Source of the DNA: a virus
Reading direction: 5' to 3' (one strand)
DNA: 22,699 bases
IMG/VR virus record: IMGVR_UViG_3300007735_000496
Coordinates: 1 to 22,699 of that record
Shown here: piece after piece, positions 1,126 to 22,526 of the stretch
How positions within the stretch are numbered: the first letter of the stretch is position 1
Layout of the letters: every line of letters starts with the position of its first letter
Position numbers and translations under genes: made by a program
The notes under the pieces: model-generated
Database searches by the model: none
What the model saw: only the letters and a program-made list of their open reading frames with translations
What the model was told of the DNA's origin: nothing

Positions 1126-1535
1126 TTGCTGGCCCTCACTACATCATCGCCCTTGGTCACAATAACGTGGCCGTTTTCAACGTCCACCCGCATTGGCTGC
1201 TCTTTACGGTCAAGCCTGTCTAGTTTGGCGATCAGGTCTTTAATCACACCAAACTCGGGCTTGTCCTCTTTCTCAACCGTGCCTGCAATCGAAGCCAGCA
1301 TGGAGATCAAAGCCGTCAAGGACGCCCCAAGCAACCCCATGACCGCAGCAATCTTGTCCGAGTCCAGCGCAAGGCTAGAGAGAACGCCGATTACTACAAT
1401 GGCTGTGATGTACTTGAGCCCGTCCTTGCCGATGGCCTTACCCGCGACATCCTTTGCGGAAGACTGAGCTTCCAACCGCTGCAACTCAGCCTGAATCTGG
1501 ACCTTGAGTAATTGGATGTCGGTAGGTTCGGTCAT
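1122..1535 (-). CDS. Two-TM membrane protein of the lysis cassette (candidate holin/antiholin)
   Basis: This is a 137-aa protein with a helical, charged N-terminus (residues 5-40). Two hydrophobic segments follow (about 42-57, ITAIVVIGVLSSLAL, and about 63-86, rich in Ala, Leu and Gly), separated by a short DSDK loop. The C-terminus is charged (about 88-137). I chose the ATG at 1535 because it forms a TAATG overlap with the upstream DUF7936 stop and has GGAGT just before it; a start 12 nt further upstream is possible. The topology and the position just before a GTA-type holin and a lysozyme suggest a holin, antiholin or other lysis-timing protein. This is inference from topology and context; I do not recognise a named family with certainty. 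Confidence 0.7.
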   Translation of the reverse strand: MTEPTDIQLLKVQIQAELQRLEAQSSAKDVAGKAIGKDGLKYITAIVVIGVLSSLALDSDKIAAVMGLLGASLTALISMLASIAGTVEKEDKPEFGVIKDLIAKLDRLDRKEQPMRVDVENGHVIVTKGDDVVRASK

Positions 1536-1843
1536 TACGCACTCCAAGGCAGCGGCTTCGCCACCGTCGGCGGGTTCACCTGTGCATCCAGTTCCCGCGC
1601 CACGTTCGCCTCAACCTCGGCCTTGTCCACGCCGTTCGCCCAGACCCAGCCCAGCACATCGGCTTCGGTAAGATCGGGGTAGGCGATGAAGTCGCCGCTC
1701 GGTGAGGCAAAACCCATGCTCCCGTAGTTGGACGCGCTGTGGTCGCCATCCACCGCCGTGCAGCGCCATGCCGCCGTCACCACAACGTCCGTGTACGAGC
1801 CGTCTACCGGCTTCACGACCATGTTTTCAATTTTCCAATTCAT
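1535..1843 (-). CDS. DUF7936-like small phage protein, copy 2
   Basis: This 102-aa protein begins with the NWKIENMVVKPVDG motif and contains a Trp-Arg-Cys segment (about residues 26-28), GSMGFASPSG and a WANGVDKAEVEANVARELD helix. I recognise it as the small acidic phage protein usually filed as DUF7936, often found near tail-fibre genes; its function is not known. It is nearly identical to the copy at 22064-22381: five substitutions across about 98 aligned residues by hand count (Y/H, D/E, A/D, D/T, V/I), with different C-terminal ends. Start and stop both form TAATG overlaps with neighbours, so its translation is probably coupled to the 51-aa gene upstream. Function is unknown; a tail-fibre-associated role is inferred only from context. 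Confidence 0.85.
   Translation of the reverse strand: MNWKIENMVVKPVDGSYTDVVVTAAWRCTAVDGDHSASNYGSMGFASPSGDFIAYPDLTEADVLGWVWANGVDKAEVEANVARELDAQVNPPTVAKPLPWSA
1548..1837. repeat. Direct repeat copy A (about 290 bp), paired with 22083-22372
   Basis: This stretch aligns without gaps to 22083-22372 at a constant offset of 20,535 nt and in the same orientation. I count about 19 mismatches by hand, about 93% identity. It covers nearly the whole DUF7936-like gene. Identity stops abruptly on both sides. Confidence 0.9.
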
Positions 1844-1998
1844 TACTTCGACTCCTCTTGTTTCGGCAGCAACGGCTTGACCTGTTCGGTCAACTTAATC
1901 CAAAGCGGATGCGCTCCCTGTGCTGTCGGGAGAGATCCAAGTAGATTAACAATAGCGACGGCTTCTTCCAGCGTCACTTCAAGTTTTACAGATTCCAT
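1843..1998 (-). CDS. Small 51-aa protein paired with DUF7936 (copy 2)
   Basis: This short gene encodes 51 residues starting MESVKLEVTLEEAVAIVNLL and ending LLPKQEESK. It is a predicted mostly helical, acidic protein with an amphipathic helix (about residues 9-20) and a conserved-looking GSLPTAQGAHPLW turn. It shares pattern with the 47-aa gene at 22374-22517: KLE-T-EE, an LG-LPT turn, a P-L residue pair and a charged C-terminal helix. Like that gene, it lies directly upstream of a DUF7936 gene. Both its ends are TAATG overlaps (with the sulfotransferase stop and the DUF7936 start). That overlap, the shared context and the pairwise resemblance are the evidence that it is real. Function is unknown; a small partner of the DUF7936 protein is a reasonable guess. 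Confidence 0.75.
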   Translation of the reverse strand: MESVKLEVTLEEAVAIVNLLGSLPTAQGAHPLWIKLTEQVKPLLPKQEESK

Positions 1999-2585
1999 TA
2001 GTACTCCTTACCTAGTCTATCTTTAGCCAGCGCGTAGTCGGCAGCGTATTCCTGCCGGACAAAGTCAATGACCTTTTGCGTTACGACGCTGCGGCCAAAG
2101 TCCGTGGACTTGTTCTTAATAACGAGCGGGATGGTGTAGTTCCCTGAGATGCGACGGATCTCGGCTTCGTAGTTATCAAAGTCCAGAATTTCTGTGTTGG
2201 GCAACGTAGCCCAACGGGACTGCGGAAAAAACAAAACATTGAATGTAGACTTAAAATGATCAAAATTGTCTACAACCTGTTCGTATGAACACGCCTCAAC
2301 AGATTCTTGAATTTCGCATGTATCTAAAACCTGTTGGAATCTTTCGGAATCTCTTTGTTTATTAAATAAAATTGTGCTTACAAACCGATCCAACGGGTTT
2401 CTAACAAACATTAGATAGTTGTACTGAGTAAGGTTCGGCCATTTTTCTACGGCGTGTTCAGGCAAAATGTGGCTTAGCGGCTTAACCATTTTCCAGTTTT
2501 CTTCCCTTAAAAAAGTCATAGCTGTTTTTGTCCCGTTTTTAGGCGGCACAAACAAACACAGCTTTTGTTCTTTCTGAAATAACAC
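1998..2585 (-). CDS. Sulfotransferase-family protein
   Basis: This gene probably encodes a 195-aa enzyme that would move sulfate from PAPS to a hydroxyl, most likely on a carbohydrate. The evidence is a 5'-phosphosulfate-binding-like loop near the N-terminus (FVPPKNGTKTAMTF, about residues 12-25) preceded by a beta-strand. A 3'-phosphate-binding-like motif (LMFVRNPLDRFVS, about 58-70) follows, with an Arg and a Ser in the expected places. The remainder is typical of the Sulfotransfer_2 type but short. I chose the GTG at 2585 because it overlaps the upstream stop (TAGTG) and the homologous fold begins right there. An ATG at 2669 would add 28 residues that only shadow the upstream gene. The region is AT-richer than its neighbours, suggesting recent acquisition. 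The acceptor is unknown; host surface glycan or a virion component are possibilities. Confidence 0.72.
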   Translation of the reverse strand: MLFQKEQKLCLFVPPKNGTKTAMTFLREENWKMVKPLSHILPEHAVEKWPNLTQYNYLMFVRNPLDRFVSTILFNKQRDSERFQQVLDTCEIQESVEACSYEQVVDNFDHFKSTFNVLFFPQSRWATLPNTEILDFDNYEAEIRRISGNYTIPLVIKNKSTDFGRSVVTQKVIDFVRQEYAADYALAKDRLGKEY

Positions 2586-2938
2586 TACGGCGTTTCCTGA
2601 TCCCAAGTCTTTGTTGCCGCGTTCCAAACGTAACTGCCGCCATCTCCCGGAGGACAATTCCACTTGCAATTGTCTGGATCAAGCACGCACTGGGGATCAG
2701 GCTGCGGCGGGATAAAAGCATCCAAAACCGAGTCATAAGTAAACCCGATGCCAGCGTAGTTTTTGCGGAAGTTCCCGTTGTAAGAAGTCTGCTTCCAATT
2801 GCCGCCAAGCAAACGAACGCAAAAAGCCTGACCAATCCATTCCTGCTCAACGCCATTGGCATCCGCCGTGTTTTTGTTATCCACAACAATGACGCGAAGC
2901 ACAACGTTGTTAGCATCAAGTTCTGCAAAGTGAGCCAT
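2585..2938 (-). CDS. Conserved phage protein (MAHFAELD family), tail-fibre region
   Basis: This 117-aa protein begins MAHFAELDANNVVLRVIVVDN. It contains WKQTSYNGNFRKNYAGIGFTYD (split here as WKQTSYNG then FRKNYAGIGFTYD, about residues 48-69) and an IPPQPDP turn. I recognise this as a small protein common in marine and freshwater phages, including cyanophages, usually downstream of tail-fibre genes; its function is unknown. The C-terminal third has three Cys (CVLDPDNCKWNC) and ends with a W-N-A-TKTWDQ motif. The ATG at 2938 is preferred over a TTG two codons upstream because GAGGGA lies about 7 nt before it. It starts just past the 2OG-oxygenase stop and its own stop overlaps the sulfotransferase GTG. 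A virion or adhesin accessory role is inferred only from position. Confidence 0.8.
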   Translation of the reverse strand: MAHFAELDANNVVLRVIVVDNKNTADANGVEQEWIGQAFCVRLLGGNWKQTSYNGNFRKNYAGIGFTYDSVLDAFIPPQPDPQCVLDPDNCKWNCPPGDGGSYVWNAATKTWDQETP

Positions 2939-2940
2939 GT

Positions 2941-3546
2941 TCAATCCCTCAAATGGAGCGCGGTCAAGTTTTCTTCCTGACCCACATAACCTACTGGAAA
3001 CGTATTAAAAGCCAGACTGACGCGAGTTTGATCCGCCTGAACCTTCTCAACTGAATGCGTAAGCGAAGACGGAAACAACATTAGATTGCCCGTTTCAACC
3101 GGAAGCCACCAAGACTTGCTGTTGTAAAGATTGTAGTTTTCGGTGGGTAGATCAATCGTCTTGTATTCGTCACCGTAAAAATAAATCTTGTCGCTGTCTT
3201 TAACCGCCTTCATGTACAGCACGCCCGAGACAAACGAATTAGGATGTGCGTGTTTGTGGTGCCATTCACCGGGTTTGCTGTAGTTCAACCACGACTGCGT
3301 AACCCGCAATGACACATCGTTCTTGGGCGCGTAGATGTTCTGCAAATAAGTGCCGACACAAGATTTCACAAAGTCATAGACCGAAGCCATTGTCTTGTGC
3401 GTGAGAACATACCGATCATCGCTTGTTGTATTTCCCACGTTGTTATGAGTTTGCTGCTGATCCACAAAGTCCAACTCCTCGGTCGTGAATGCACGATCCA
3501 AGGTGAACTTGGCAACCGGAGTGGGGAACAGGTTATGCACAATCAC
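2941..3546 (-). CDS. 2OG-Fe(II) oxygenase family protein
   Basis: This 201-aa protein resembles the phage-borne 2OG-Fe(II) oxygenases of the 2OG-FeII_Oxy_5 type. Such enzymes hydroxylate a substrate using 2-oxoglutarate, O2 and ferrous iron. It opens with the family's NLFPTPVAKF-like start. A His-rich strand (EWHHKHAHPNSFVSGVLY, about residues 94-111) supplies candidate iron ligands His99 and His101. A distal His164 (LTHSVEKV) and Arg175 (TRVSLAFN) fit the second iron ligand and the 2OG-binding arginine. It overlaps the upstream 85-aa gene by 4 nt (ATGA). It lies in the adhesin block, next to a sulfotransferase. The substrate cannot be read from sequence. Fibre residues, host surface components or metabolic targets are all possible. 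Confidence 0.85.
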   Translation of the reverse strand: MIVHNLFPTPVAKFTLDRAFTTEELDFVDQQQTHNNVGNTTSDDRYVLTHKTMASVYDFVKSCVGTYLQNIYAPKNDVSLRVTQSWLNYSKPGEWHHKHAHPNSFVSGVLYMKAVKDSDKIYFYGDEYKTIDLPTENYNLYNSKSWWLPVETGNLMLFPSSLTHSVEKVQADQTRVSLAFNTFPVGYVGQEENLTALHLRD

Positions 3547-3800
3547 GAGTTGTTGGCCTGTTCAATTTGGTCTAGTTGAGCCTTAAATTTAGCTTCCTGT
3601 TCAGGCAACAAGATCGTGTTGATGGAGTCCTCAAACGCTTTGATCTTCTCTACGGTATCCATCACTTCTTGCCATGACGGGCAGGGGCGCGGGTCATCCC
3701 AGCGAGAAAAATAGCTGTTCGTGATTTCCCACTTAGCACCCGGACGCAGCAAGTGCATGGCTACGTCAATCCCTACAAGTTGATAGGTCTTTAGTTTCAT
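3543..3800 (-). CDS. Small tail-fibre-accessory protein (XkdW-like guess)
   Basis: This 85-aa protein has an N-terminal segment (about residues 8-30, VGIDVAMHLLRPGAKWEI) followed by a YFSRWDDPRPCPSWQEV stretch. The C-terminal helix (about 48-85) is charged and probably coiled. The pattern 'LRPGA-W-I...W-D...P-P-W-EV' resembles the small XkdW-like or assembly-helper proteins that follow phage fibre genes. The resemblance is weak and I offer it only as a guess. It begins 1 nt after the glycine-rich adhesin stop and overlaps the oxygenase start, so it is translationally tied to the adhesin. A chaperone or assembly role for the neighbouring fibre or adhesin is the most natural hypothesis. Confidence 0.65.
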   Translation of the reverse strand: MKLKTYQLVGIDVAMHLLRPGAKWEITNSYFSRWDDPRPCPSWQEVMDTVEKIKAFEDSINTILLPEQEAKFKAQLDQIEQANNS

Positions 3801-3801
3801 A

Positions 3802-5481
3802 TTAGTTGAACTTAATGATTACGATGCCGGAGCCGCCAGCGGCAGACTGATTTGGATTATTACATCCACCACCACCGCCGCCGCCGGTATTAGCGGTTCC
3901 CGCAACAGCCGTAAAAGGCCCCGGTGAAGGTTTTGTAGAACCTGCATTCCCCCCTCCGCCAGCGCCGCCAAGCCCATATATTTGAGAAAGGCTATTTCCG
4001 CTGCCTCCCCCTCCGCCAGCGTAAGTTACAGATGCGCCAGAAAGAGTTGAAGCAGAGCCGTCTCCACCATTTGATCCGTACCAATTTGGCGCAACATTTA
4101 AAGTTGCATCACTTCCGACGGCTGAAGCTCCTCCACCACCGCCACCGCCAGAAGCGCCATTTAAAGTTCCGTTTCCTTGGCCACCGTTGTTGCCTTGCGA
4201 AGGACTTACAGAGGGGGTATTGCCACTTCCAACCGTTCCGCGAACTACCGCAGGATTGCCGTTGCTAACACCACTACCTCCACCAGAACCGCCATTTTTT
4301 CCGTTTCGGTTGGTTGTATTTTGGGTTTCAAAACCGCCGCCACCGCCGCCAGTAGATGTAATGGTATTAAATATAGAATCGCTGCCGTTGTTACCTCTGT
4401 TACCTGAAACTACAGACCCGCCAGCGCCCACCGTTACGCCGTATTCACTTCCCGCTGTAACGGAAAACCCTGAACCCGTGCGGAACCCACCTGCGCCGCC
4501 TCCTGCTCCACTTGGGCCATCTCCGCCAGCACCGCCACCCGCCACAACCAAGTAGTCGCAACTCGTCACGCCGGTTGGAACGATAAATGTACCAGAGCCG
4601 TAGAAAATAAGCGGGGATGCGGTAGTCGTTGCGTATTTCAGAATGACAGTGCCGGAACCGCCGGGACCGCCAGCCTTACCTTGGACGCCCCCGCCGCCAC
4701 CGCCACCGCCTAAATTTGCCCCTCCTGCTACGGCATTAGAGCCAACGTACGCCCCGGCTCCCCCGCCTCCCGTGCCGCCACTACCTGATTGGGTAGTGCC
4801 TGAAGCACCTCCGCCGCCGCCTGCGTAGGTAACTGAAGTGCCTGTAATACTAGAAGCGGTTCCGTTTCCGCCATTTCCTCCAACGGCGCCTGATCCATTA
4901 GCACCAGCAGCACTAGCCCCGCCCCCACCGCCACCAGAATTAGTGGCTGCTCCTGTGGTACTAGCATTACCACCATTGTTTCCTTGCGAGGGACTTACGG
5001 ATGGACTGTTTCCAGTTCCGCCTCCCGCTGCGGTTCTAGTTACTGGGTAATAGGGAGCTGGGCCAACTTCCTCTACCATTGATCCGCCGCCGCCACTACC
5101 TCCATTTGCGCCCGCAGCGCCGGGACCATCTTGTCGAAGTTGCCCACCATTTCCACCGCCAGTAGATGTAATGGTGCTAAATACAGAATTTGATCCACTT
5201 GCATTTCCACCACCGCCCGCGCCGACGGTAATGGTGTAAGAAGTTCCGGCGGTTACAGCAAATGATGTTGCAGTACGAAATCCTCCAGCACCTCCACCAC
5301 CGGCTATGCCGCCGAGGCTATAAACTTGACCTCCACCACCACCGCCTGCGACAACAAGATAATCAACGCTAGTCACGCCAGTCGGCGCGGTCCATGAACC
5401 GGCACCGGTAAAAGTAACTACAACAGTAATGTCTCTAGCCTGAATGACTCCAGCCAGAAGCAGTTGCATGATTCCAGACAT
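3802..5481 (-). CDS. Glycine-rich tail adhesin with duplicated domain
   Basis: This 559-aa protein is dominated by glycine runs (many GGGGG, GGAGG and GGNGG blocks). It consists of two tandem copies of one domain, at about residues 21-290 and 291-559. Each copy opens with a beta-rich leader (GAGSWTAPTGVTSVDYLVVAGG in copy 1, GSGTFIVPTGVTSCDYLVVAGG in copy 2; key shared residues are PTGVTS-DYLVVAGG). An AGGFRT motif, a T-T-Y-VTVGAGG strand and a SPSQGNNGG motif follow. The protein ends GSGIVIIKFN and copy 1 ends GSGTVILKY. This matches phage glycine-rich adhesins that fold as polyglycine-II helix bundles and decide receptor specificity at fibre tips. The start lies 3 nt after the fibre stop. 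The N-terminus (MQLLLAGVIQ) is hydrophobic but not a convincing signal. The repetitive DNA could collapse or vary in assembly. Confidence 0.85.
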   Translation of the reverse strand: MSGIMQLLLAGVIQARDITVVVTFTGAGSWTAPTGVTSVDYLVVAGGGGGGQVYSLGGIAGGGGAGGFRTATSFAVTAGTSYTITVGAGGGGNASGSNSVFSTITSTGGGNGGQLRQDGPGAAGANGGSGGGGSMVEEVGPAPYYPVTRTAAGGGTGNSPSVSPSQGNNGGNASTTGAATNSGGGGGGASAAGANGSGAVGGNGGNGTASSITGTSVTYAGGGGGASGTTQSGSGGTGGGGAGAYVGSNAVAGGANLGGGGGGGGVQGKAGGPGGSGTVILKYATTTASPLIFYGSGTFIVPTGVTSCDYLVVAGGGAGGDGPSGAGGGAGGFRTGSGFSVTAGSEYGVTVGAGGSVVSGNRGNNGSDSIFNTITSTGGGGGGFETQNTTNRNGKNGGSGGGSGVSNGNPAVVRGTVGSGNTPSVSPSQGNNGGQGNGTLNGASGGGGGGGASAVGSDATLNVAPNWYGSNGGDGSASTLSGASVTYAGGGGGSGNSLSQIYGLGGAGGGGNAGSTKPSPGPFTAVAGTANTGGGGGGGCNNPNQSAAGGSGIVIIKFN

Positions 5482-5484
5482 GGT

Positions 5485-8085
5485 TTAGCTCACGTTTCCA
5501 TTGACGACGCAGACCGTGCCGCTGATGAACAGGATCGTTGCGACGCCGCGTGTTGCCAAAGTGATGGTTGCTTTGTCGGTGTTGGTGCCGCCGATATAAG
5601 CCGTCGTAATCGTCATCGTCAGCGTCACGTTGCCCGTGGTGTTGTTAAATACTGAGACCACATCCCCGGTTGCGAAAGTTGCATCCGGTACGGTGATGCT
5701 GCCGCCTGAGCCGACGCCAATGAACCTACCGACATCCGTTGTTGCGAGCGTATAAGAACCCGTCTTGTCCGATCCTGACTGCGGGATGGCGCGGATGTTG
5801 CCGTATTGATCGCTTATTTTGCCGCTGGAGTCAATAGCAAAACGGTCTGTACCGCCGGTCACATCACGGATGAGGTAGCTTCCGTCGGCCGAGCGCATTG
5901 AATATGTTCTGGTGGGACTGCCCGCGTTGTCAGTAAGTCGCAGCGTCGGGTCATTTCCCGTCAAGTCCAACAGCGAAGCAGGCGACGCAGTACCAATACC
6001 GACGTTGCCGGAGGAGTCAATAATTGCCCGCAGCGTATTATTGGTTGAAAAGCCAATCGGGTGAGTGCTAACTGTAATTAAATTTAAACTGTTGTTACCC
6101 GCATAAGATCCTTGTGCAGACCCGTTGCGGTAAATACCGGCGTTTGCATCGCGAAGTTGGATGGTGCTGTACCCGTCAGTTGCGGTGTTGGTAATTCGCA
6201 ACGCAAGGTTATTCGCGGCTGCGGTTCCGTAAATTTCTGTCTTTGTAGCAGGCGACGCAGTACCAATCCCGACGTTACCGGAGGAGTCAACGGTCATGCG
6301 GGTCGTATTATTTGTCCCAATATTTAGACCATACGCTCCCGTAACTAAAATGTTTCCGGTGCCTGCGGAATTATAAAAATAGAAGTTTGTGTTTGTGCCG
6401 CCGCTGTCTTTTACTAACGCATTGAATCCAGTTTGACCAGATGTTGCGGCATTTCCAATGACTCTTGCATAATAAAAATTGTCTGAATAAAAATCCGCTG
6501 GATTTGTTGCAGATGACCGCACATCTATTTTTGCATTGGCCGACGCAGTACCAATCCCGAGGTTTCCCGACGTATCCAGCCGCATACGCTCGCTGCCGCC
6601 GGTATAGAAGGTCATCGGCAGGTAGGTGCCGGTGCCGCGAATAGCAGACTGAATTAACGCTTCCGTTGCGTTTGTGCCAGCCAAAAGCAAAGACGAGTTT
6701 GTTGGATCGCTGTTGTTGTAACAGTTGATGTTTGAGGCGGTGCCAGTTCCGTTTGGCAGCGAAGAAATTGACGTTGCGCTATTGGCCGTGCTTGTCTGGA
6801 AAGCCAGCCGATTGCTAAATGTCGCATTGGTCATATCGCCCGTGATGCGCTGGGCGGTGGACGAGAAGGTGAGGTTGCCGGAGGCGTCCAAAGTCATTTT
6901 CGTTGAATAATTGATGCCAAAATTCAACGGAATTGCGCCCACGGTGTAAAGATTTAATTCTGTGCCGCCAGAGTAAAGGCCACCTCTTGATGCGCCTCCT
7001 GTTCCCATTTCAAAGCGCGAAGTGCTAGAACCGTTTAGCGTTAAAACTTTGCTTGCTGAGTCAAAAGCCGACGTCGTGCCGATGCCGAGGTTGCCGGAGG
7101 CGTCAAATCTTGCAGTCTCCGTGCCAGCGCCAGAACCGCGCCAAAATACTATGCTTCCTGCGCCAGAATCGCTGTTCCAAATGTTTAAGTTTTGAGAGTT
7201 GTCAAGGTCTACGATTGCAAATCTGCCTGTGCTTGAATTATCCAAGCGAATTGACGAACCCGTTGTTGCGGCAAATACGCCTGATCCGCTTATCGTAAGT
7301 TTTCTTGTCGGACTCGCCGTGCCAATGCCAAGGTTGGTGCCGTCAAATACCAGCGCACTCCCGCTCGTCGCCACCTTGGAGCCGTTCAGGTACAGGACGC
7401 CGTTGGCGGTGCCGCCGGAGAGGGTGGGGTTAGCCGTAAAGGTGGCTGCGCCGGTGACCGCAAAGACACCGCCGACCGACAGGGCCGAGGTGATCGACAC
7501 GTTGGCCTGAAAGCCCGCGTTGCCGGTGACCGTCAGCGTGCCGTTGATCGTTGTGTTACCGAACGAGTTGGCGGCGTTAATCATCTGGAAGCGCGTGCCG
7601 TCGTAAATCACGACGACCACTTCACCCGAGTTGATGTCGCCAGCGGCAAGGGCGCTGCTACCGTCGCGGGTGATGCTCTTGGCACCGAGGCTGTCGATGT
7701 TCAGCGTCACCGCGCCTGTGTTGGCTGCGTTAGCGACAAAGTAAAACAACTGCCCCGCTGCATAAGCGGTCAACTGCGGCGACATGGAGCCCGTGATCGT
7801 GTCCGTGCCTGTCACCGTGATGAGTTTGGCGACGGTGGACTGCACCTGCCCCAAATTCGCGGCATCCGCTGCGGCAGTACCCGACCCCAGCCCCGTGATT
7901 TTGTTAGACCCAAAGGGGATGTTGTTGGTGATCGTCGTCTGACCGTCTTTGGTAATCGCCGTGGAAAGACCCGTTGCAAGGTCAGAGGTCAAGGCGTTAA
8001 AGACCGTGGCCGAAATGACGGTGTTAGCGACGACAGGCTGGCCTGCCGAGTTGATTAAGAACGTTCCCGAGCCATTATACGACAT
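5485..8085 (-). CDS. Tail fibre protein
   Basis: This 866-aa beta-rich protein is the main tail fibre candidate. Residues 1-170 form a virion-attachment-like region with the SNKITGLGSGTAAADAANL motif (about 60-78) and a GQLFYFVANAANTGAVTLNID strand (key GQLFYF, about 111-116). The shaft carries a recurring (N/V)LGIGTASP-type motif at about residues 252, 335, 510, 603 and 695, each followed by a short beta segment. This is a typical trimeric fibre-shaft repeat. The C-terminal part (about 760-866) has a GSYTLATTDVGRF segment and a final run of beta strands ending VVNGNVS. I see no peptidase S74 chaperone domain. The start follows a GAGG-TATAGGTAA leader 30 nt after the upstream stop. Together with the glycine-rich adhesin it should mediate host recognition. 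Confidence 0.9.
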   Translation of the reverse strand: MSYNGSGTFLINSAGQPVVANTVISATVFNALTSDLATGLSTAITKDGQTTITNNIPFGSNKITGLGSGTAAADAANLGQVQSTVAKLITVTGTDTITGSMSPQLTAYAAGQLFYFVANAANTGAVTLNIDSLGAKSITRDGSSALAAGDINSGEVVVVIYDGTRFQMINAANSFGNTTINGTLTVTGNAGFQANVSITSALSVGGVFAVTGAATFTANPTLSGGTANGVLYLNGSKVATSGSALVFDGTNLGIGTASPTRKLTISGSGVFAATTGSSIRLDNSSTGRFAIVDLDNSQNLNIWNSDSGAGSIVFWRGSGAGTETARFDASGNLGIGTTSAFDSASKVLTLNGSSTSRFEMGTGGASRGGLYSGGTELNLYTVGAIPLNFGINYSTKMTLDASGNLTFSSTAQRITGDMTNATFSNRLAFQTSTANSATSISSLPNGTGTASNINCYNNSDPTNSSLLLAGTNATEALIQSAIRGTGTYLPMTFYTGGSERMRLDTSGNLGIGTASANAKIDVRSSATNPADFYSDNFYYARVIGNAATSGQTGFNALVKDSGGTNTNFYFYNSAGTGNILVTGAYGLNIGTNNTTRMTVDSSGNVGIGTASPATKTEIYGTAAANNLALRITNTATDGYSTIQLRDANAGIYRNGSAQGSYAGNNSLNLITVSTHPIGFSTNNTLRAIIDSSGNVGIGTASPASLLDLTGNDPTLRLTDNAGSPTRTYSMRSADGSYLIRDVTGGTDRFAIDSSGKISDQYGNIRAIPQSGSDKTGSYTLATTDVGRFIGVGSGGSITVPDATFATGDVVSVFNNTTGNVTLTMTITTAYIGGTNTDKATITLATRGVATILFISGTVCVVNGNVS
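5977..6020. repeat. 44-nt fibre-shaft repeat, copy 1
   Basis: This 44-nt stretch matches 6247-6290 with two mismatches by hand count. A partial third copy is at about 6541-6577. It encodes the NVGIGTASPA motif of the tail-fibre shaft. Confidence 0.85.
6247..6290. repeat. 44-nt fibre-shaft repeat, copy 2
   Basis: Second copy of the fibre repeat at 5977-6020, in the same orientation and 270 nt (90 codons) apart, so exchange between copies would preserve the reading frame. Confidence 0.85.
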
Positions 8086-8115
8086 TTACCTATACCTCGG
8101 TGATGGCATAAATCG

Positions 8116-11451: not shown

Positions 11452-11455
11452 AACG

Positions 11456-13801: not shown

Positions 13802-14207
13802 ACCGAGGCTCCAAGTATCGACACTTATCGGGTGTCTGCGTCATCAAAACAATGTCTCCAGAGTCGTGCGCGGCACCTTTAATCCGCGCTTCTTCCGAAA
13901 ACCCCATCTTGCTGACCAATGCGAGCGCCCGGGTATGGTTGCTGCTAATTGGCCCTATGATCTTATCAACATTTGCGACGTTGTACGCATAGTCATACAC
14001 CGCCGCCATATACGCTGGGGTAACCCGTTCCCACGCTATGTGGCAAACCACGGATCGCCCGTTCCAGTTCTCGTAGACCGTCCCTGCGACGATCTTGCCG
14101 TCACGCTCAAGACCAATCGCGGTTGAGCGGTTAGGGTCAAACGCACCCTCTGTCTGCGCCGTGACCCATGCCCCAACATGGGGGCCGCTTACGATGCGCC
14201 AGCCCAT
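13764..14207 (-). CDS. GNAT-like acetyltransferase
   Basis: This 147-aa protein has the size and layout of a single-domain GCN5-related N-acetyltransferase. It has an N-terminal strand-helix (residues 1-30), a beta hairpin (IGLERDGKIVAGTVYENW, about 31-48), a strand (VVCHIAWERV) and a helix that leads into NHTRALALVSKMGFSEEAR (about 90-108). The Asn...RA...L..K.GF pattern resembles the acetyl-CoA-binding end of GNAT proteins. The glycine-rich Q/RxxGxG/A loop is not clean, so activity is not certain. It overlaps the nozzle-like gene upstream by 19 nt and the 781-aa gene downstream by 38 nt. The ATG at 14207 has no clear RBS, so coupling is likely. Similar GNAT genes occur in the tail region of podophages. 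The substrate is unknown; virion-protein or host-factor acetylation are guesses. Confidence 0.65.
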   Translation of the reverse strand: MGWRIVSGPHVGAWVTAQTEGAFDPNRSTAIGLERDGKIVAGTVYENWNGRSVVCHIAWERVTPAYMAAVYDYAYNVANVDKIIGPISSNHTRALALVSKMGFSEEARIKGAAHDSGDIVLMTQTPDKCRYLEPRYGQKIASATASA

Positions 14208-16665: not shown

Positions 16666-16666
16666 A

Positions 16667-17203
16667 CTATGTCTCCACTACTTTTGCGGGACGACCGCGC
16701 TTCGGCTTGTCCATCATGGCAGCCATCTGCGCCTGAAGTTCGGCTAACTGGCGCTTCGTGTCGGCCAGTTCTTCGTTGCTTTCGCTGCGGTTCTTGCGGT
16801 TAAGGTACATACGCGCCTTTTCGCGCATCCCCACGGCACCCATACCAATCCGCTGCAGTTGACCGTCAGAGGCCAATGCCAACTGCTCCACCGTCACAAA
16901 CTTAAGGATGTTGAGTTCCGCGATCATGTCCTTGCTGACATCCTCGGGAAAATCCCGATGCCATTGCGTGAGCGGCGTGCCGATCTGTTCGGCGGCGCTT
17001 TCGCTCTGCTGCATCTGGTAATACAGCCATTGCCGAGGGAAACGCTGCTTGTGATCATCGCGCACCGGCTGGTCGATGATGTTGGTCTTGTCTCCCGGGG
17101 CCATGATCCGCACATAGGACTTGCCCTTCTTTGGGCCGTCCTCGCGGGTGTAAAACTCAACGTGCAGTTGGGCGTCGGCGTTGTTGATGTCGCTGTCCAG
17201 CAT
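16667..17203 (-). CDS. Phage virion-region protein with helix-hairpin-like and AT-hook-like segments
   Basis: This 178-aa protein starts at an ATG with a strong AGGAGAAAGGAA site; the reading frame stays open a further 27 codons upstream into the previous gene, but those codons contain the RBS. Residues 12-95 are mixed alpha/beta (HVEFYTRED, YVRIMAPGD, RQWLYYQMQQSE). Residues about 93-134 (AELNILKFVTVEQLALASDG then LQRIGMGAVGMREKARMYL) look like a helix-hairpin-helix. Residues about 140-165 form a short coiled coil, and the end KPKRGRPAK is an AT-hook-like basic tail. The protein sits between virion genes and the adaptor. I do not know its named family. DNA contact inside the capsid or a head-completion role are inferences from the basic tail and place. 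Confidence 0.75.
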   Translation of the reverse strand: MLDSDINNADAQLHVEFYTREDGPKKGKSYVRIMAPGDKTNIIDQPVRDDHKQRFPRQWLYYQMQQSESAAEQIGTPLTQWHRDFPEDVSKDMIAELNILKFVTVEQLALASDGQLQRIGMGAVGMREKARMYLNRKNRSESNEELADTKRQLAELQAQMAAMMDKPKRGRPAKVVET

Positions 17204-17209
17204 TTCCTT

Positions 17210-17226
17210 TCTCCTGTGGGGATTGG
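17210..17226 (-). promoter_or_regulatory. Repeated translation-start element (17 nt), copy 1
   Basis: On the coding strand this reads CCAATCCCCACAGGAGA. It ends in the Shine-Dalgarno of the 178-aa gene (AGGAGA, then AAGGAAATG). An identical 17-mer precedes the scaffolding-like gene at 21337-21353. Confidence 0.7.
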
Positions 17227-17229
17227 GGC

Positions 17230-18057
17230 TTACAGGTTGTTGACCTGTGTTACGGTGCAAATTACTGACGGGATCGCGGGCCATACGCTTGTGGCGCTGG
17301 CTGCAAGGATTCTAGCGTTTGTGGTACTGGTTGCCCACATCAACTCAACGTAATTGGTTGGCTCTAATTGAATAATGAAATTCCACGCGGCAACTAACCG
17401 AGCAGACGTGCCTTGCAACGCAACCGTGCTGGCTGAATTTGGCACATTAGTGCCGTTTTTACGCAGCCAAATGTAAACGTTTGCGGTGGCTCCTGACGTT
17501 TGGTCTAACTGCGCCGAAAACTGGACGTTGTAAACGCCCTGATTAGCCACTACAAGGCGCGAGGTCGGTGACCCAATGGACACGCCGTTGCTGCTGTCGG
17601 TCGTGTTAAACGTCATGGCATAGGCGGTATTGATAGAGGCCGCCGTCTGCAAAGTAGTGTCCGAAAACGCCCCGTAATGCAGGATTGGGACTGCCGAGTT
17701 AAAGCCCTGCAAGCCTTCCCACCGGCTATTGCTGACAGCGAAAAACACCGCTGAACAGCCAATGTTGACCGTTGAAAATGACCCGCCGTCTATTTGCGTG
17801 GTGGATTCATAGGGATAAACGGTTAGCGCATTTGCGCCCGAGTTTGTTACCCAAATCGTTTCGCCCATTTCGGTTGGCGGCAGTTTGACGCCTGTGCCAG
17901 AGGCTACCGTTGTGACGTTGTTATAGACGTAGGTAATGGCCGTGGCGCTACCCGCTGACGTACCCGCTGCGGTCACCGATGCATTGCCGTCGCCGCAAAT
18001 GGACACCGTGGATAATTGGCTAATGCCGCTACCCAAGACTCGGGACGGGATCGCCAT
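17230..18057 (-). CDS. Virion-type protein with C1q/TNF-like jelly-roll C-terminus
   Basis: This 275-aa protein is probably displayed on the head or tail surface. Residues 1-125 are a beta-rich virion-type segment rich in Ser, Thr, Ala and Gly (TYVYNNVTTVASGTGVKLPP, ETIWVTNSGANALTVYP, SRWEGLQGFNS). Residues about 127-275 look like a C1q/TNF-type jelly roll: HYGAFSDTTLQTA, then YAMTFN, GVYNVQFSAQLDQTSG, NVYIWLRKNGTNVPNS, AAWNFIIQLEPTNYVELMW and a final strand SVICTVTQV. The FSAQLD...WLRKNG...NFII-L...YVEL-W pattern is the evidence. Such domains are used by phages as head fibres or receptor-binding decorations. The start is a TAATG overlap with the frameshifted gene upstream and has GAGG 6 nt before it. 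Whether it attaches to head or tail cannot be told. Confidence 0.75.
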   Translation of the reverse strand: MAIPSRVLGSGISQLSTVSICGDGNASVTAAGTSAGSATAITYVYNNVTTVASGTGVKLPPTEMGETIWVTNSGANALTVYPYESTTQIDGGSFSTVNIGCSAVFFAVSNSRWEGLQGFNSAVPILHYGAFSDTTLQTAASINTAYAMTFNTTDSSNGVSIGSPTSRLVVANQGVYNVQFSAQLDQTSGATANVYIWLRKNGTNVPNSASTVALQGTSARLVAAWNFIIQLEPTNYVELMWATSTTNARILAASATSVWPAIPSVICTVTQVNNL

Positions 18058-18310
18058 TACGCCGCCTCGGCGCGTTCAGCCCTTACGCGCATGATCTCTG
18101 CGATCAGCCCCGGCCCCTTAACGTCAAGCGTTACATCGGGCATGACCTCAAAAATCTTCTGAAATTCGTTGGCCTGCTGGGCCATTGCCATGTTGCAGTT
18201 AAACTTCTTACCCGTTGGGCCGCCTACCCAAATATCTACCGATGGGCCGGTTGTCTCGCCCGTGAATCGCTTAAGGCCGTCTGCGCGGTTGCAGGAGTCG
18301 TAGCCGTAAA
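18057..18310 (-). pseudogene. Displaced 3' part of the MptE/DUF115-like gene (frameshift remnant)
   Basis: Read in the other frame from about 18310, this stretch continues the homology of the upstream gene. It opens with YGYDSCNRADGLKRFTGETT, then has a VDIWVGGPTGKKFNCNMAMA segment, QQANEFQKIFEVMPDVTLDV and a charged C-terminal helix (LIAEIMRVRAERAEAA). Its stop overlaps the next gene's ATG as TAATG, the rule in this operon, which shows this is the original gene end. One base is missing in a T run on the coding strand (AAA at 18308-18310 on the plus strand). Restoring one T gives an uninterrupted gene of about 258 aa over 18057-18832. Confidence 0.85.
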
Positions 18311-18832
18311 GCGTAAATTGCGGAATCCGAGGATGTAGCCAATGTTAATGGCACGCAGACCCGAGGTCGTGCCGCCACCGATGGCTAACTTGTTTGGCCC
18401 CAGCGCCTCCATCTCTGCCCCCGGCGCCCATGAGTGCCATAGCAACACCTTCTTACCCTTCAGGTAGTCAAAGGTGGAGGGCGGGCAGCGCGAGGCGGGC
18501 ATATAGGTCGTATGGTCGTTCAGCCGCTGGATGCCGCTGGTGCGGTCGCGGGGGTCAAGGTTGACCCACAGATCAGGCTCCACGCCGTTCGTCACCAAGT
18601 AGTCGTGCGTGGCCTTGATGCTGACAATCGGTCGCCCTGCCTTGCGGTGGGCTTTGATCTCATCAATGTAGTCAGGCATAGACCACCCGCTCGCCACCAG
18701 CACCATGTTGCCATCGTGTTTGGTGGGAGCGAGGGTCAGTTCTGGTAGACCACGGGCCAGCGCCGAGCGGATATTGGAACAAAGTTCCTCGTCCGTCCCT
18801 GCCGCCTGTACCGTGATCTCCAGAGGCTTCAT
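18236..18832 (-). CDS. MptE/DUF115-like protein, truncated by frameshift
   Basis: This reading frame starts at the ATG overlapping the decoration-gene stop (TAATG) and ends early at a TAG. It carries 175 residues of genuine homology, then about 23 out-of-frame residues. The real part contains NMVLVASGWSMPDYIDEI (about residues 42-59), RPIVSIKATHDYL (67-79), VEPDLWVNLDPRD (84-96), PASRCPPSTFDYL (112-124) and LAIGGGTTSGLRAINIGYIL (149-168). This is the pattern of phage proteins related to 6-hydroxymethylpterin pyrophosphokinase MptE-like / DUF115 proteins, which also resemble flagellin-glycosylation MAF-type proteins. Enzyme activity in phages is untested as far as I know. The intact product would need the 3' part at 18057-18310. 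A longer start 15 codons upstream is unlikely. Confidence 0.78.
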   Translation of the reverse strand: MKPLEITVQAAGTDEELCSNIRSALARGLPELTLAPTKHDGNMVLVASGWSMPDYIDEIKAHRKAGRPIVSIKATHDYLVTNGVEPDLWVNLDPRDRTSGIQRLNDHTTYMPASRCPPSTFDYLKGKKVLLWHSWAPGAEMEALGPNKLAIGGGTTSGLRAINIGYILGFRNLRFTATTPATAQTALSDSRARQPAHR

Positions 18833-19305
18833 TAAGCGTTCAGACCCGTCAGAACGTGCGGGTAGCCCGCAACGCAAGTCGGAGCCGAGGCCGATGCCGC
18901 CGAGGTGGTTGCCACAAGGCCCGCAACCAAACCCGCCGTCACGGTGGCGTCGTCAAGCGAGCCAGCCGTTGCGGTGGTGAAGAGCGGGACGTTGGGCTGA
19001 CAACCGATCAGCACGTTGACACGCGGCTTACCGCCCAACTGCACCCAGCCGTAGTAGGCCGAGGCAATGGACGCCTGAGCAAAGCCAATGGCCTTGCTGT
19101 TAGCCGAGTTGGTCGTGGTGAGCGGGACAACGGTGTTATCCACACGGACGGAAACCGCCATGTAGGTAGACACCGTGGACGCCGCCTGCACATAGACCGC
19201 CTGACCGCCATCGTTCAGGTTGACCGTGGTGCCGGTGGCAAACGAGGGCGTGGTGTCGGTGTAATCAAGTGCCACACCGATCAATGCACTAGTAGAGATC
19301 GACAT
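18832..19305 (-). CDS. Putative capsid decoration (cement) protein
   Basis: This 157-aa protein begins MSISTSALIGVALDYTDT. I chose this ATG because a strong AAGGGGGG site lies 7 nt before it; a start seven codons upstream would overlap the capsid gene. It is small, beta-rich and rich in Ala, Thr, Val and Ser. It has AVYVQAASTVSTYMAVSVRVD, NSKAIGFAQASIASAYYGWVQLGG (key GFAQ...YGW-Q-GG) and VPLFTTATAGSLDDATV, and a hydrophobic C-terminus. These features and the position right after the major capsid gene fit the small cement proteins that stabilise the expanded capsid. Some residues (YGWVQLGG-P-V, VPLFTTATAG) are typical of the phage structural repeat. There is no named family I can assign with certainty. 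Confidence 0.75.
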   Translation of the reverse strand: MSISTSALIGVALDYTDTTPSFATGTTVNLNDGGQAVYVQAASTVSTYMAVSVRVDNTVVPLTTTNSANSKAIGFAQASIASAYYGWVQLGGKPRVNVLIGCQPNVPLFTTATAGSLDDATVTAGLVAGLVATTSAASASAPTCVAGYPHVLTGLNA

Positions 19306-19318
19306 TTCTATGCCCCCC

Positions 19319-20338
19319 TTAATCAATCAACACGCCTTGGAACTGGCTGCCCGAGCAGGTGAGGTTACCCGCCCAGCCAATCAATTTCACAATGGCGTCT
19401 TGGTTAACGGCCTGCCGCTCGCCGCCAATCGGCACAAAGTTGCGATCCTTGTGCGGACGGAAGTGCAGGTACTTGGTGTTCAAGAACCACATATGGTTGG
19501 CGTTTCCTGAACCGCTGTTGTAGGTGGACGAACCGATACCACCGTCCAGCACAACGTCGGAGGCCATGCCTGCGCCGTAATACTTGAGGGAGGCAAAGCC
19601 CGCGCCAGCCATGCTTGAACCGCTGTCGGTCACGCGCTGAATGTTCTGCAGCGACTGCAGGTAATAACGGTAGTAGTTATTGTCTGCAACGATGAGATCA
19701 GGCTTGTCGGTGCCACGGATCAACTGCACAGCGAGGGCGTCCATGTAACCCTGAATGGTGGTGGACGACACAACGCCCGAACCACTCACCGAGGCATCAA
19801 ACACTTTCGACTGCCAGAACGTCCACACGGCGCGGTTGATGCCGCCGTAGGTTCCCGTGGTCGGGTCATCCGGCACAGCAGCAGCAAGGCCCGTCAGGTT
19901 TTTGCCTGCGTTGCCGAGGCCGTCACCGTACAGGTCGCCGGAGATGCGGTTAGCGAGTTGCGCTTCCGCGACCGACATACGACCGTCAAGAAGGTCGATG
20001 ATCGCCTCCTTGCCCGAGTTCTGGATCATTTCCAGACCCGAGATCGTCACGGCGCTGGCGTACTGCGTGATGGAGAACTGCGCCGCACTAATGGGCGAGT
20101 TCTGTCCCACGTTCAGCACTTCATAGCCGCTGTACGAGTTCGTATTGTTAGTCGTGGGGTCGGTATACATGATTTCCTGCAAAATCACGTTACCGCCCGA
20201 GAACGTCTTGACGTTCCCACGCTCCTTGAGGCGACGAAGCAACGCATTGTTGTTCGTCACGTTGTCAGCGAGTTCACCGCTACGGCTCTGGATCGTAGTA
20301 GCGATGATGTCGCTGATACTAGAGTTGGCAAATGCCAT
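19319..20338 (-). CDS. Major capsid protein (HK97-fold type)
   Basis: This 339-aa protein fits a phage major capsid subunit. It has MAFANSSISDIIATTIQSRS at the N-terminus, LADNVTNNNALLRRLKERGN (about residues 23-42), then TFSGGNVILQEI. The characteristic VTISGLEMIQNSGKEAIIDLLDGR (key ISGLEM-QN-GKE, about 97-109) comes next, followed by a RISGDLYGDGLGN loop, a GGINRAVWTFWQSKVFD segment and the DLIVADNNYYRYYLQSLQN helix. The end has a MWFLNTKYLHFRPHKDRNF strand region. Length is normal for this family. The strong AGGAGA site 6 nt upstream and the largest gap in the head block (15 nt) fit high expression. It follows the scaffolding-like gene and precedes the decoration gene. Confidence 0.92.
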   Translation of the reverse strand: MAFANSSISDIIATTIQSRSGELADNVTNNNALLRRLKERGNVKTFSGGNVILQEIMYTDPTTNNTNSYSGYEVLNVGQNSPISAAQFSITQYASAVTISGLEMIQNSGKEAIIDLLDGRMSVAEAQLANRISGDLYGDGLGNAGKNLTGLAAAVPDDPTTGTYGGINRAVWTFWQSKVFDASVSGSGVVSSTTIQGYMDALAVQLIRGTDKPDLIVADNNYYRYYLQSLQNIQRVTDSGSSMAGAGFASLKYYGAGMASDVVLDGGIGSSTYNSGSGNANHMWFLNTKYLHFRPHKDRNFVPIGGERQAVNQDAIVKLIGWAGNLTCSGSQFQGVLID

Positions 20339-20344
20339 TTGAAG

Positions 20345-20350
20345 TCTCCT
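20345..20350 (-). promoter_or_regulatory. Strong ribosome binding site of the capsid gene
   Basis: On the coding strand AGGAGA lies 6 nt before the ATG of the major capsid gene, in the 15-nt gap after the scaffolding-like stop. It is the clearest independent (non-overlapping) initiation site in the head block. Confidence 0.75.
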
Positions 20351-20353
20351 ATA

Positions 20354-21331
20354 TCAGTTAATTACAAACGGCGATTCCAGATCGGCAAACTGCTCCTCCA
20401 AAATCGCACGACGGTCGCCGCCTTTGGGAGCCGTGTTAACGCCGGGTGTGGCGCTTCTGACACTCACCGCTGCTGCTCTGGCTGCTTTCGCTGCTCGGTT
20501 TTTCTCTGCGGAAACTTGTGCGCTCTGTTTAGCCTGTTGGGCCGACAAAATGCGTTCCCGCAAATCTTTATTTCCATAAACGGCCTTATCATACGCCTCC
20601 TCCAATGTTTCGGCGCTACCGCCTTGGAGGAGCTTGATCATTTCGGGGCGTACTTCCTCAAAATGCTCGGCCTTCTGGGCAAAATCCTCAATTTCGTTCA
20701 GCAGCACAGCCTGTTCGGCCTGCTCTTGCTGCTGCTTCCAAGTCATGACCTCGCCACGCACGTTTGCCAGCTCGTTTTTGAGGGCAAAAATGGTGGGGTC
20801 AGCGGTCGGTGCGCCGGTCTGCGGCATACCGCCTAAATTGATGCCGTATTCGTTCGCCAACTGCATGAAATACTGCTGACGGGTCTGCGGATCGCTCGTT
20901 CGTAGCGTGTGATCGGCCTTCATCAGCGCGGCGATGGCCTGCTCGGGCTTAAGTCCAAGGCCGTTTAGCGTGCTGATGTACGGATTGATCGCCTCGTTGA
21001 TGGCGTCGGCAAACTGCTTGGCTTGCAGCAGCGGTTCCACGCCCCGGCGCATCTGCTCCTCGCGCTGGTAGGCGTACTCCTGTAGCCGGGGGTCGGCTTT
21101 CTGCCAAACCTCGTGGTAATCCTTTTTCCAAGAAAGCGGCGGGCGCTTCCAGACGGGTTCTTCGGCGGGTTCGGGCGCTTCTTCCTCGGGTTCTGCCTTG
21201 GCAAAGCGGCCCTGCGCGTCACGGTCGGCGTCGGCAGGCTCGTTGTTTTCTACCGCGTCAAAGCCCTGCTCCAAAATAGCCCTGCGGTCGGTAGTTTCAA
21301 CCTCTGGGGTGTCAACAGTTTGGTCGGTCAT
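20354..21331 (-). CDS. Scaffolding-like protein
   Basis: This 325-aa protein lies directly before the major capsid gene and has scaffolding features. It has an acidic, disordered N-terminus (about residues 1-60, EPEEEAPEPAEEP), a PPLSWKKDYHEVWQKADPRL segment and a charged helical coil middle (about 110-280). The basic Ala/Lys-rich tail (AEKNRAAKAARAAAVSVR, about 275-293) is of the type that binds coat protein. The motif DRRAILEQGFDAVE near the N-terminus (about 15-28) reappears as DRRAILEEQFADLE at the C-terminus (about 306-319). It starts with a TAATG overlap and a repeated 17-nt leader. Scaffold is inferred from position, composition and the basic C-terminal helix; no protease signature is present. 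Confidence 0.8.
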   Translation of the reverse strand: MTDQTVDTPEVETTDRRAILEQGFDAVENNEPADADRDAQGRFAKAEPEEEAPEPAEEPVWKRPPLSWKKDYHEVWQKADPRLQEYAYQREEQMRRGVEPLLQAKQFADAINEAINPYISTLNGLGLKPEQAIAALMKADHTLRTSDPQTRQQYFMQLANEYGINLGGMPQTGAPTADPTIFALKNELANVRGEVMTWKQQQEQAEQAVLLNEIEDFAQKAEHFEEVRPEMIKLLQGGSAETLEEAYDKAVYGNKDLRERILSAQQAKQSAQVSAEKNRAAKAARAAAVSVRSATPGVNTAPKGGDRRAILEEQFADLESPFVIN

Positions 21332-21678
21332 TAGCCTCTCCTGTGGGGATTGGTGAAATTAAACTCTTGGCGCAACTGACGCAGCACGCGGTCGGCCTGC
21401 TCGTTCGTCATGCGCTTGTTGACCTCCCACTTCAGCCGCTCTAAACGCTCGTTGGTTTGGCGTTCGGGCTTGATATGGCGGGCAGGATCGTCGTTGCCGA
21501 CCTCAATGCAGTTGTTGGCTTTAAGGTGACGGCGATGTTCGGAGCGCGAGGTAATCATCTTGCCGTCAATCATGCTCTTGTAGGGCTGGATGTCGGGCTG
21601 GACGTAGTGATAGCGACCCTTGGCGTCTTTTTTACGCTCTACGAACTCGCCATCCATGTAAACGTAAGTGCGTTTCAT
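21331..21678 (-). CDS. Conserved phage protein of unknown function upstream of scaffold
   Basis: This 115-aa basic protein begins MKRTYVYMDGEFVERKKDAK. It contains a VQPDIQPYKSMIDGKMITSR segment (about residues 27-46) followed by SEHRRHLKANNCIEVGND. The rest is helical (RLKWEVNKRMTNEQADRVLR) and ends NFTNPHRRG. I recognise the DIQPYKS-IDGK-I-SR-EHR-HLK pattern from other tailed-phage head regions, but have no function for it. A DNA- or capsid-associated role is inferred from its charge and place. Its last codons encode the scaffolding gene's leader and RBS. It overlaps the upstream gene by 4 nt (ATGA). Confidence 0.72.
   Translation of the reverse strand: MKRTYVYMDGEFVERKKDAKGRYHYVQPDIQPYKSMIDGKMITSRSEHRRHLKANNCIEVGNDDPARHIKPERQTNERLERLKWEVNKRMTNEQADRVLRQLRQEFNFTNPHRRG
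21337..21353 (-). promoter_or_regulatory. Repeated translation-start element (17 nt), copy 2
   Basis: On the coding strand this reads CCAATCCCCACAGGAGA. It lies in the last codons of the 115-aa gene and supplies the Shine-Dalgarno of the scaffolding-like gene (GGAGA, GGCTA, ATG). It is identical to 17210-17226. Confidence 0.7.
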
Positions 21679-22064
21679 AGCAGTAACAATACTTCCTCGT
21701 CGTCCTTTTCTTGCAGCTCGCGGTACAGCGCCTCAATGCGCGTTACGTCCGCAAGCAATGCGTCAAAATCAATGGCGTTGACTGGCGGGATCGGAATGCC
21801 TGCGGCCTCCTCCTCCACAAACGGGGCCACAATCTCCGCGACAATGCGCGGGCGGCCTTCAACAAGTTCCTCGTAAACCGCAATAACTTCTTTACGCCGC
21901 GCCTGACGGAGTTTTTCGTACTCGTCATACTTTGGTTCAGGGCGTTTCCGATGCGTATTCTTGCCACCATCGTGCATATCCGTAATGACGATGGGGGTGG
22001 GCGGCGTGATAACCGTCCCCGCATCGGCAAATGGCAATACGCAAAATGGAGCAAGTGCAAACAT
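21675..22064 (-). CDS. Small acidic helical phage protein, unknown function
   Basis: This 129-aa protein starts MFALAPFCVLPFADAGTVIT and is followed by a Pro-rich segment and a basic patch (NTHRKRPEPKYDEYEKLR). The C-terminal half is acidic and helical, with FVEEEAAGIPIPPVNAIDFD and a final helix ending EKDDEEVLLLL. The short hydrophobic N-terminus is not a convincing signal peptide. It starts with a TAATG overlap with the DUF7936-like gene. The same type of gene follows DUF7936 or fibre genes in other phages, as I remember it, but I am not certain of that and know no function. Confidence 0.65.
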   Translation of the reverse strand: MFALAPFCVLPFADAGTVITPPTPIVITDMHDGGKNTHRKRPEPKYDEYEKLRQARRKEVIAVYEELVEGRPRIVAEIVAPFVEEEAAGIPIPPVNAIDFDALLADVTRIEALYRELQEKDDEEVLLLL

Positions 22065-22381
22065 TAGGCAGCATTAACCCACGGCAACGGCTTGGCAACA
22101 GTCGGCGGGTTTACCTGTGCATCCAGCTCCCGCGCCACGTTCGCCTCAACCTCGGCCTTGTCCACGCCGTTCGCCCAAATCCAGCCCAGAACAGTGTCCT
22201 CGGTAAGATCGGGGTAGGCGATGAAGTCGCCGCTCGGTGAGGCAAAGCCCATGCTGCCGTAGTTGGACGCGCTGTGTTCGCCGTCTACCGCCGTGCAGCG
22301 CCATGCCGCCGTCACCACAACGTCCGTGTGCGAGCCGTCTACCGGCTTCACGACCATGTTTTCAATTTTCCAGTTAGCCAT
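22064..22381 (-). CDS. DUF7936-like small phage protein, copy 1
   Basis: This 105-aa protein starts MANWKIENMVVKPVDGSHTD and is nearly identical to the copy at 1535-1843 apart from its ends. It shares WRCTAVDG, GSMGFASPSGDF, AYPDLTE, WANGVDKAEVEANVARELD and VNPPTVAKPLPW. I place it with the phage proteins filed as DUF7936, of unknown function. It overlaps the 47-aa gene by 8 nt and the next gene by 1 nt. No catalytic motif is visible. Unlike copy 2, it lies upstream of the head genes and just after a fibre-like gene fragment. Confidence 0.85.
   Translation of the reverse strand: MANWKIENMVVKPVDGSHTDVVVTAAWRCTAVDGEHSASNYGSMGFASPSGDFIAYPDLTEDTVLGWIWANGVDKAEVEANVARELDAQVNPPTVAKPLPWVNAA
22083..22372. 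repeat. Direct repeat copy B (about 290 bp), paired with 1548-1837
   Basis: Ungapped, same-orientation match to 1548-1837 with about 19 mismatches by hand count. It covers most of the DUF7936-like gene. The flanking genes are diverged or unrelated. Confidence 0.9.
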
Positions 22382-22517
22382 TGCTCTGCTCCTTCAAGGC
22401 TTCTTCAGCCTGCTCTTTGATTTTGACCAACAACGGCCACGCGCCGCTGCTCGTCGGGAGTTGTCCCAATACTTGCAGGATGGCCTGCACTTCTTCAGTC
22501 GTCAGTTCAAGTTTCAT
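22374..22517 (-). CDS. Small 47-aa protein paired with DUF7936 (copy 1)
   Basis: This gene encodes 47 residues, MKLELTTEEVQAILQVLGQL then PTSSGAWPLLVKIKEQAEEALKEQSNG. It is predicted to be two acidic helices joined by a LPTSSG turn. It starts at an ATG with GGAGT just upstream and overlaps the DUF7936 gene by 8 nt (ATGGCTAA). It resembles the 51-aa gene at 1843-1998: the KLE-T-EE start, the LG-LPT turn, G-(A)-P-L and a charged C-terminus. The two are far more diverged from each other than are the DUF7936 genes downstream of them. Function unknown. Confidence 0.75.
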   Translation of the reverse strand: MKLELTTEEVQAILQVLGQLPTSSGAWPLLVKIKEQAEEALKEQSNG

Positions 22518-22526
22518 CGTCACTCC

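Follow-up and report, generated by a model that had tools for sequence, protein, structure and literature searches.

The window analyzed here is the whole of IMG/VR record IMGVR_UViG_3300007735_000496, a linear contig 22,699 bases long, one end of which falls within a fibre gene. Two of its open reading frames, and no others in the record, match the PF25590 (DUF7936) profile, both above the curated cut-off of 27 bits: copy 1 at 1535-1843 (minus strand; 93.3 bits, E = 1.7e-26; also phrog_7802), located at site 1, between fibre/modification genes and lysis genes, and copy 2 at 22064-22381 (minus strand; 90.5 bits, E = 1.4e-25), located at site 2, upstream of the scaffold and capsid genes. A repeat search identified a single long direct-repeat family in the window, an ungapped pair of 297 nt at 1544-1840 and 22079-22375, with a spacing of 20,535 between the copies, 93% identity, 21 mismatches and a longest exact run of 50 nt; a chance origin of this repeat is excluded. 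Within the DUF7936 genes, the repeat extends from codon 2 to a few codons before the stop, halting at both gene ends, with the small partner genes left outside. The repeat noted in the preliminary description, 290 nt with about 19 mismatches counted by hand, is confirmed, exactly 19 mismatches being found by base-by-base alignment. The accompanying statement that the copies flank the whole virion module is supported only for the capsid, scaffold, tail and fibre genes, which lie between them.

All genes of interest, here and below, are on the minus strand, and transcription therefore runs from site 2 to site 1. The order begins with the 3' end of a second fibre gene (22524-22699), which is cut by the contig end and has homologous ends in the related loci L008, L010, L069 and L039, and continues with a small partner gene of the sm49 type (22374-22523; 47 aa from the ATG at 22517), then DUF7936 copy 2, g129, g115, a scaffold-like gene (20354-21331), so called from its ORF and synteny only, by position before the capsid gene, and the major capsid protein gene (19319-20338; phrog_9953, E = 2e-103), the product of which is 54% identical to the capsid protein of Myxococcus phage Mx8. 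The tail genes follow, and then the site 1 region, with a tail fibre protein (5485-8085; phrog_9942 tail fiber protein, E = 2.8e-18), a glycine-rich fibre-like protein (3802-5481; PF21722, E = 2e-39; phrog_2295), a 2OG-Fe(II) oxygenase gene (2941-3546; PF13759, E = 1.3e-21) and, upstream of the site 1 pair, a sulfotransferase-like gene (1998-2669; phrog_3347, E = 6e-4; Sulfotransfer_2, E = 3e-4, just under the curated cut-off). The pair itself consists of a small partner gene of the sm51 type (1843-1998; 51 aa), which overlaps the DUF7936 start, and DUF7936 copy 1; downstream lie g141 (1122-1535), a conserved gene that served as the right-hand anchor in the comparison of related loci, g162 and the lysozyme gene.

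In the fibre end at the right edge, an in-frame TGA is present at 22640-22660 (minus strand; GFLYVPT*AGTPTG), where L008, L010, L069 and L039 have a TGT/TGC cysteine codon; it reflects either an end-of-contig error or a truncated fibre. The sulfotransferase and 2OG-oxygenase genes (1998-3546 in the window) recur between fibre genes and DUF7936 in L299, L313 and phage S-TIP37 (L463), and may be involved in modification of the host surface or of the fibre.

Module edges and typed gene pairs

Both window regions were compared with related loci by blastn, and the ends of the matches were tallied (n = 53 for copy 1, n = 50 for copy 2). The matches of copy 1 stop at the 3' edge of DUF7936 in 49 of 53 cases and at the 5' edge in 46 of 53; those of copy 2 stop at the 3' edge in 45 of 50 and, on the 5' side, at the DUF7936 start in 28 and at the small-gene start in 16 of the 50. 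Continuation into the scaffold and capsid genes was observed only in the close site 2 relatives L003, L007/L008 and L044, and some carriers have very different virion and lysis genes, e.g. L163 (lysozyme 30%, a structural gene 29% and DUF7936 95% identical). Since the matches end at gene edges, islands in unlike surroundings, comprising the gene alone or with its partner, are the general state between genomes. Neither a recombinase gene nor terminal repeats were found travelling with the unit, homology being confined to the ORFs, with nothing shared in the flanks beyond them; transposon or inverted-repeat mobility was rejected, as only the ORFs move.

A survey of the site 1 slot across 77 distinct loci yielded about 30 arrangements, with alternative variants between conserved flanks; the slot is also occupied by g119, by 2OG-oxygenase or sulfotransferase genes, or by nothing. 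At site 2, L161 has 3.5 kb in common with the window up to the sm49 start codon, followed by a different fibre. In S74-type fibre ends (L161, L174, L189 and others), the last ~12 residues (ELEAKVAALEAK or ELTARVAELEAK) track the downstream gene order and not the fibre body, which suggests that recombination occurs within the conserved VKAIQEL coiled coil of these ends.

The small proteins of the two sites, previously described as sharing only pattern, are indeed much less conserved than DUF7936 but are homologous (22 of 45 residues identical, 49%, no gaps, E = 3e-13). Two small-gene types (sm49-like and sm51-like) and two DUF7936 types (common and diverged) were distinguished, and the types are linked: where the small gene is directly upstream, the common DUF7936 is accompanied by sm49 in 23 of 24 cases (23:1) and the diverged DUF7936 by sm51 in 27 of 28 (1:27; Fisher p = 1.6e-12). 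Site 2 shows the usual pairing, sm49 with a common DUF7936, and belongs to the backbone of the close relatives. Site 1 is a rare mismatch, with sm51, the usual partner of the other DUF7936 type, beside a common-type gene; the only other locus with an sm51-type gene before a common-type DUF7936 is L019, and in L060 sm51 and g141, as found at site 1 of the window, enclose a diverged DUF7936. Given the mismatch, the site 1 gene probably replaced another allele: the likeliest history is that DUF7936 was exchanged while the genes on either side stayed in place, or that a hybrid pair was imported; a donor of copy 1 was not found among the related DUF7936 genes compared. The natural hybrids (window site 1 and L019) allow a test of whether the small protein and DUF7936 must match.

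The order of the small gene and DUF7936 varies, and arrays occur, e.g. sm49-DUF-sm51-DUF in L026. Tandem arrays of two DUF7936 genes of differing types are present in L009, L021, L026, L038, L047-L050, L052-L058 and L060, with small genes before, between or after DUF7936, and the order of small gene and DUF7936 flips between phages.

Origin of the two copies

A set of some 70 distinct DUF7936 genes, drawn from related contigs, was compared at the nucleotide level and used to construct a tree. In the codon alignment, the closest relative of copy 1 is L005 (94.1% nucleotide identity) and that of copy 2 is L161, at site 2 of another phage (94.0%), whereas the two copies are 90.5% identical to each other, i.e. 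less than each is to its best outside relative. The neighbour of copy 1 in the tree is L019 (bootstrap 82), and the maximum likelihood tree in which the copies were forced to be sisters was rejected by the AU test (p = 0.023), a result that, for ~300 nt of a recombining gene, is only moderately strong. Between the copies, dN is 0.057 and dS is 0.273 (dN/dS about 0.2); purifying selection therefore acts on DUF7936, and the copies did not diverge recently. Taken at the sequence level, these comparisons make it probable that each copy was obtained independently, from a pool of genes shared by phages.

Of the causes offered in the preliminary description, which are supported in part but mostly not, the one with which the evidence agrees well is cassette import at two sites next to fibre genes. 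A recent duplication of DUF7936 within the genome, also offered there, would agree with the 93% identity over the gene, but given the closer relatives of both copies elsewhere, the rejection of sisterhood, a dS of 0.27 and the differing small partners, it is largely refuted already and retains hardly any probability. Gene conversion, in the sense of conversion-like gene replacement at site 1, finds support in the mismatch of the small gene. Conversion could also have been ectopic and within the lineage, the site 1 allele being overwritten by the phage's own site 2 copy, with divergence of both since. That the repeat ends exactly within the gene, that the small gene at site 1 is of the kind associated with another DUF7936 type and that L060 has this other type between the same flanks are all in line with such an event; nevertheless, we regard it as improbable, because copy 1 is nearer to L005 than to copy 2, the sister topology is rejected and L019, with another backbone, carries the same hybrid pair. 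For recombination or swapping of the whole 20-kb structural block through the repeats we found no evidence: the relatives exchange the fibre end just upstream of the pair, and, from reading of the comparison, in the ten records spanning both sites, DUF7936 is confined to site 1 (four, one of them of the diverged type) or to site 2 (two), or is absent from both (four).

A misassembled or chimeric contig is very unlikely. The record is a metagenomic linear contig in which the TGA near the right end makes base errors possible, but the copies differ at 21 sites with no exact run above 50 nt, L003 and L007/L008 are colinear with site 2 for 3.5 kb (90-92%), and the site 1 stretch that starts with sm51 and extends to the lysozyme gene has a colinear counterpart in L060 (76%); the assembly was judged by the divergence of the copies and the colinear contigs alone.

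Association with fibre loci

The loci were retrieved using these same genes as queries, so that the counts refer to a non-random sample, in which the only filter against near-duplicate contigs was sequence identity over the compared region. In this sample, a large, fibre-like ORF (at least 300 codons, ending within 200 nt) directly precedes DUF7936 in 86 of the 105 distinct places with enough upstream sequence, compared to 36 of 167 controls, genes of about the same length taken from these loci (p = 3e-23). The fibre ends before DUF7936 are interchangeable (S74-type closing LVKAIQEL..LEAK; GGAWRDAGP; VPCVLYCG; and others), and a bond of DUF7936 to one fibre tip type was rejected, as several unrelated ends precede it. 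Among cultured marine phages, DUF7936 is found behind tail fibre or structural genes in S-CBP1, CRP-7, CRP-345, S-H1, WH11-B and CRP-5, and in S-TIP37, a cyanophage whose genetic engineering has been published (PMC8776855), the DUF7936 gene STIP37_43 comes behind a fibre gene, a hypothetical gene and a 2OG-oxygenase gene; the position behind fibres is kept in podo-, sipho- and myophages. We looked among the retrieved loci for DUF7936 fused to a fibre and found no such case.

In L020 and G103 (= L467), from another phage group, the order fibre-DUF-fibre-DUF precedes the scaffold and capsid genes, the copies being only 37% and 30% identical; thus, two fibre loci with one companion each are not unique to the window. 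Possession of the same DUF7936 allele class at both fibre loci is unusual. Two DUF7936 genes occur in about a dozen of 135 other records, in all cases within 3.6 kb, and copies more than 5 kb apart in none of the 135 records screened; many relatives are without any DUF7936.

Known systems and a possible role

In the DUF7936 family, 16 of the 20 invariant residues are in the C-terminal half. An AlphaFold2 model (pLDDT 86, pTM 0.71) places strands at residues 3-13, 21-33 and 36-47 and helices at 61-70 and 75-90, i.e. DUF7936 is predicted to combine a three-stranded N-terminal sheet with a conserved C-terminal helical hairpin. No match of DUF7936 to other families was found in Pfam and PHROGs, the Tfa and tail-fibre chaperone families (PF02413, PF16778) did not appear when 32 members were scanned against Pfam with matches up to E = 10 included, no relative with a solved structure was found, and a PDB fold search gave no match at E ≤ 0.001, with Mu Tfa (5YVQ) and Pam3 gp25 (7YPX) both outside the best 50. 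Weak matches to a Rad52-like fold (E 0.03, TM about 0.3) were judged to be due to chance, and a literature search for DUF7936 yielded no paper.

Pam3 gp25 is a fibre chaperone encoded beside its fibre; the N-terminal beta domain of this protein varies, and its helical C-terminal domain is conserved (PMC9608196). The DUF7936 gene, like those of the Tfa type (phage Mu Tfa, Pam3 gp25), lies directly behind a fibre gene, and its product resembles Pam3 gp25 in having an N-terminal beta part and a conserved C-terminal helical part, a likeness of layout only. Unlike the Tfa type, DUF7936 shows no chaperone-family match or significant fold match and accepts several fibre ends that are unrelated to one another, among them those of self-processing S74 fibres. 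Phage Mu has paired fibre and assembly genes, S-U and S'-U'; the window likewise has two versions of the fibre and a related companion gene for each, but no invertible segment or recombinase is seen here and the copies are direct repeats 20.5 kb apart. In environmental phages, flexible gene modules or metaviromic islands are exchanged as variants of host-recognition genes between near-identical backbones (PMC7468147, PMC3909814). The exchange of homologous variants between near-identical backbones is shared with the present case, in which, however, what is conserved is a pair of small genes that follows a variable fibre and is present at two places in a single genome.

By analogy, DUF7936 may work like Tfa, although without a match to the Tfa family, and we give a role in fibre assembly or attachment an even chance, the remaining probability being divided between unrelated cargo and other roles. 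A simple tip chaperone is disfavoured by the occurrence of DUF7936 behind fibres carrying their own S74 chaperone, by the PF16778 tail assembly chaperone that adjoins DUF7936 in MW202675, and by the enzyme genes, encoding a sulfotransferase or a 2OG-oxygenase, that precede DUF7936 at window site 1 and in L034, L072 and S-TIP37. DUF7936 could instead be hitch-hiking cargo with a role in host takeover or defence, the slot behind fibres being merely permissive as the end of a late operon. The other genes that fill this slot, or its being empty, and the many relatives lacking DUF7936 speak for this; it appears doubtful, given that podo-, sipho- and myophages alike have DUF7936 behind fibres, that two-fibre phages repeat DUF7936 at each fibre locus and that no match to other families was found in Pfam or PHROGs.

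Beyond the positions, module boundaries, allele relations and type linkage, which are directly observed, we moderately favor the view that DUF7936 is a mobile companion of fibre loci, acquired separately at the two sites, and serves as an assembly or attachment factor, the transfer mechanism and the role being what we infer. DUF7936, usually with its ~50-aa partner gene, would move between phages and between sites as a gene-sized module by recombination, and the two fibre loci of the window, on either side of the capsid and tail genes, would each have their own companion. At site 1, an older allele would have been replaced by a common-type DUF7936, or a ready-made hybrid pair imported (cf. L019), and the near-identity of the copies would reflect a shared allele pool under purifying selection, not fresh duplication. 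The factor would act on the fibre made just before DUF7936, independently of the type of fibre tip. More tentatively, DUF7936 and the ~50-aa partner could form an undescribed two-protein system of fibre assembly or attachment, unrelated to Tfa, which would serve many aquatic phages whose virions are unrelated and would accept any fibre tip, and the conserved DNA of which would also anchor swaps of fibre ends. On the favored view, a widespread gene of unknown function would gain a concrete, testable role at a locus that decides host range, and DUF7936 would mark the place where environmental phages exchange fibre ends.

In the GenBank records of phages S-EIVl (AHV82128.1), DSL-LC07 and CRP-901, DUF7936 proteins are labelled lysozyme. 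This label is apparently wrong: the members scanned have no lysozyme match, and their Pfam match is to DUF7936.
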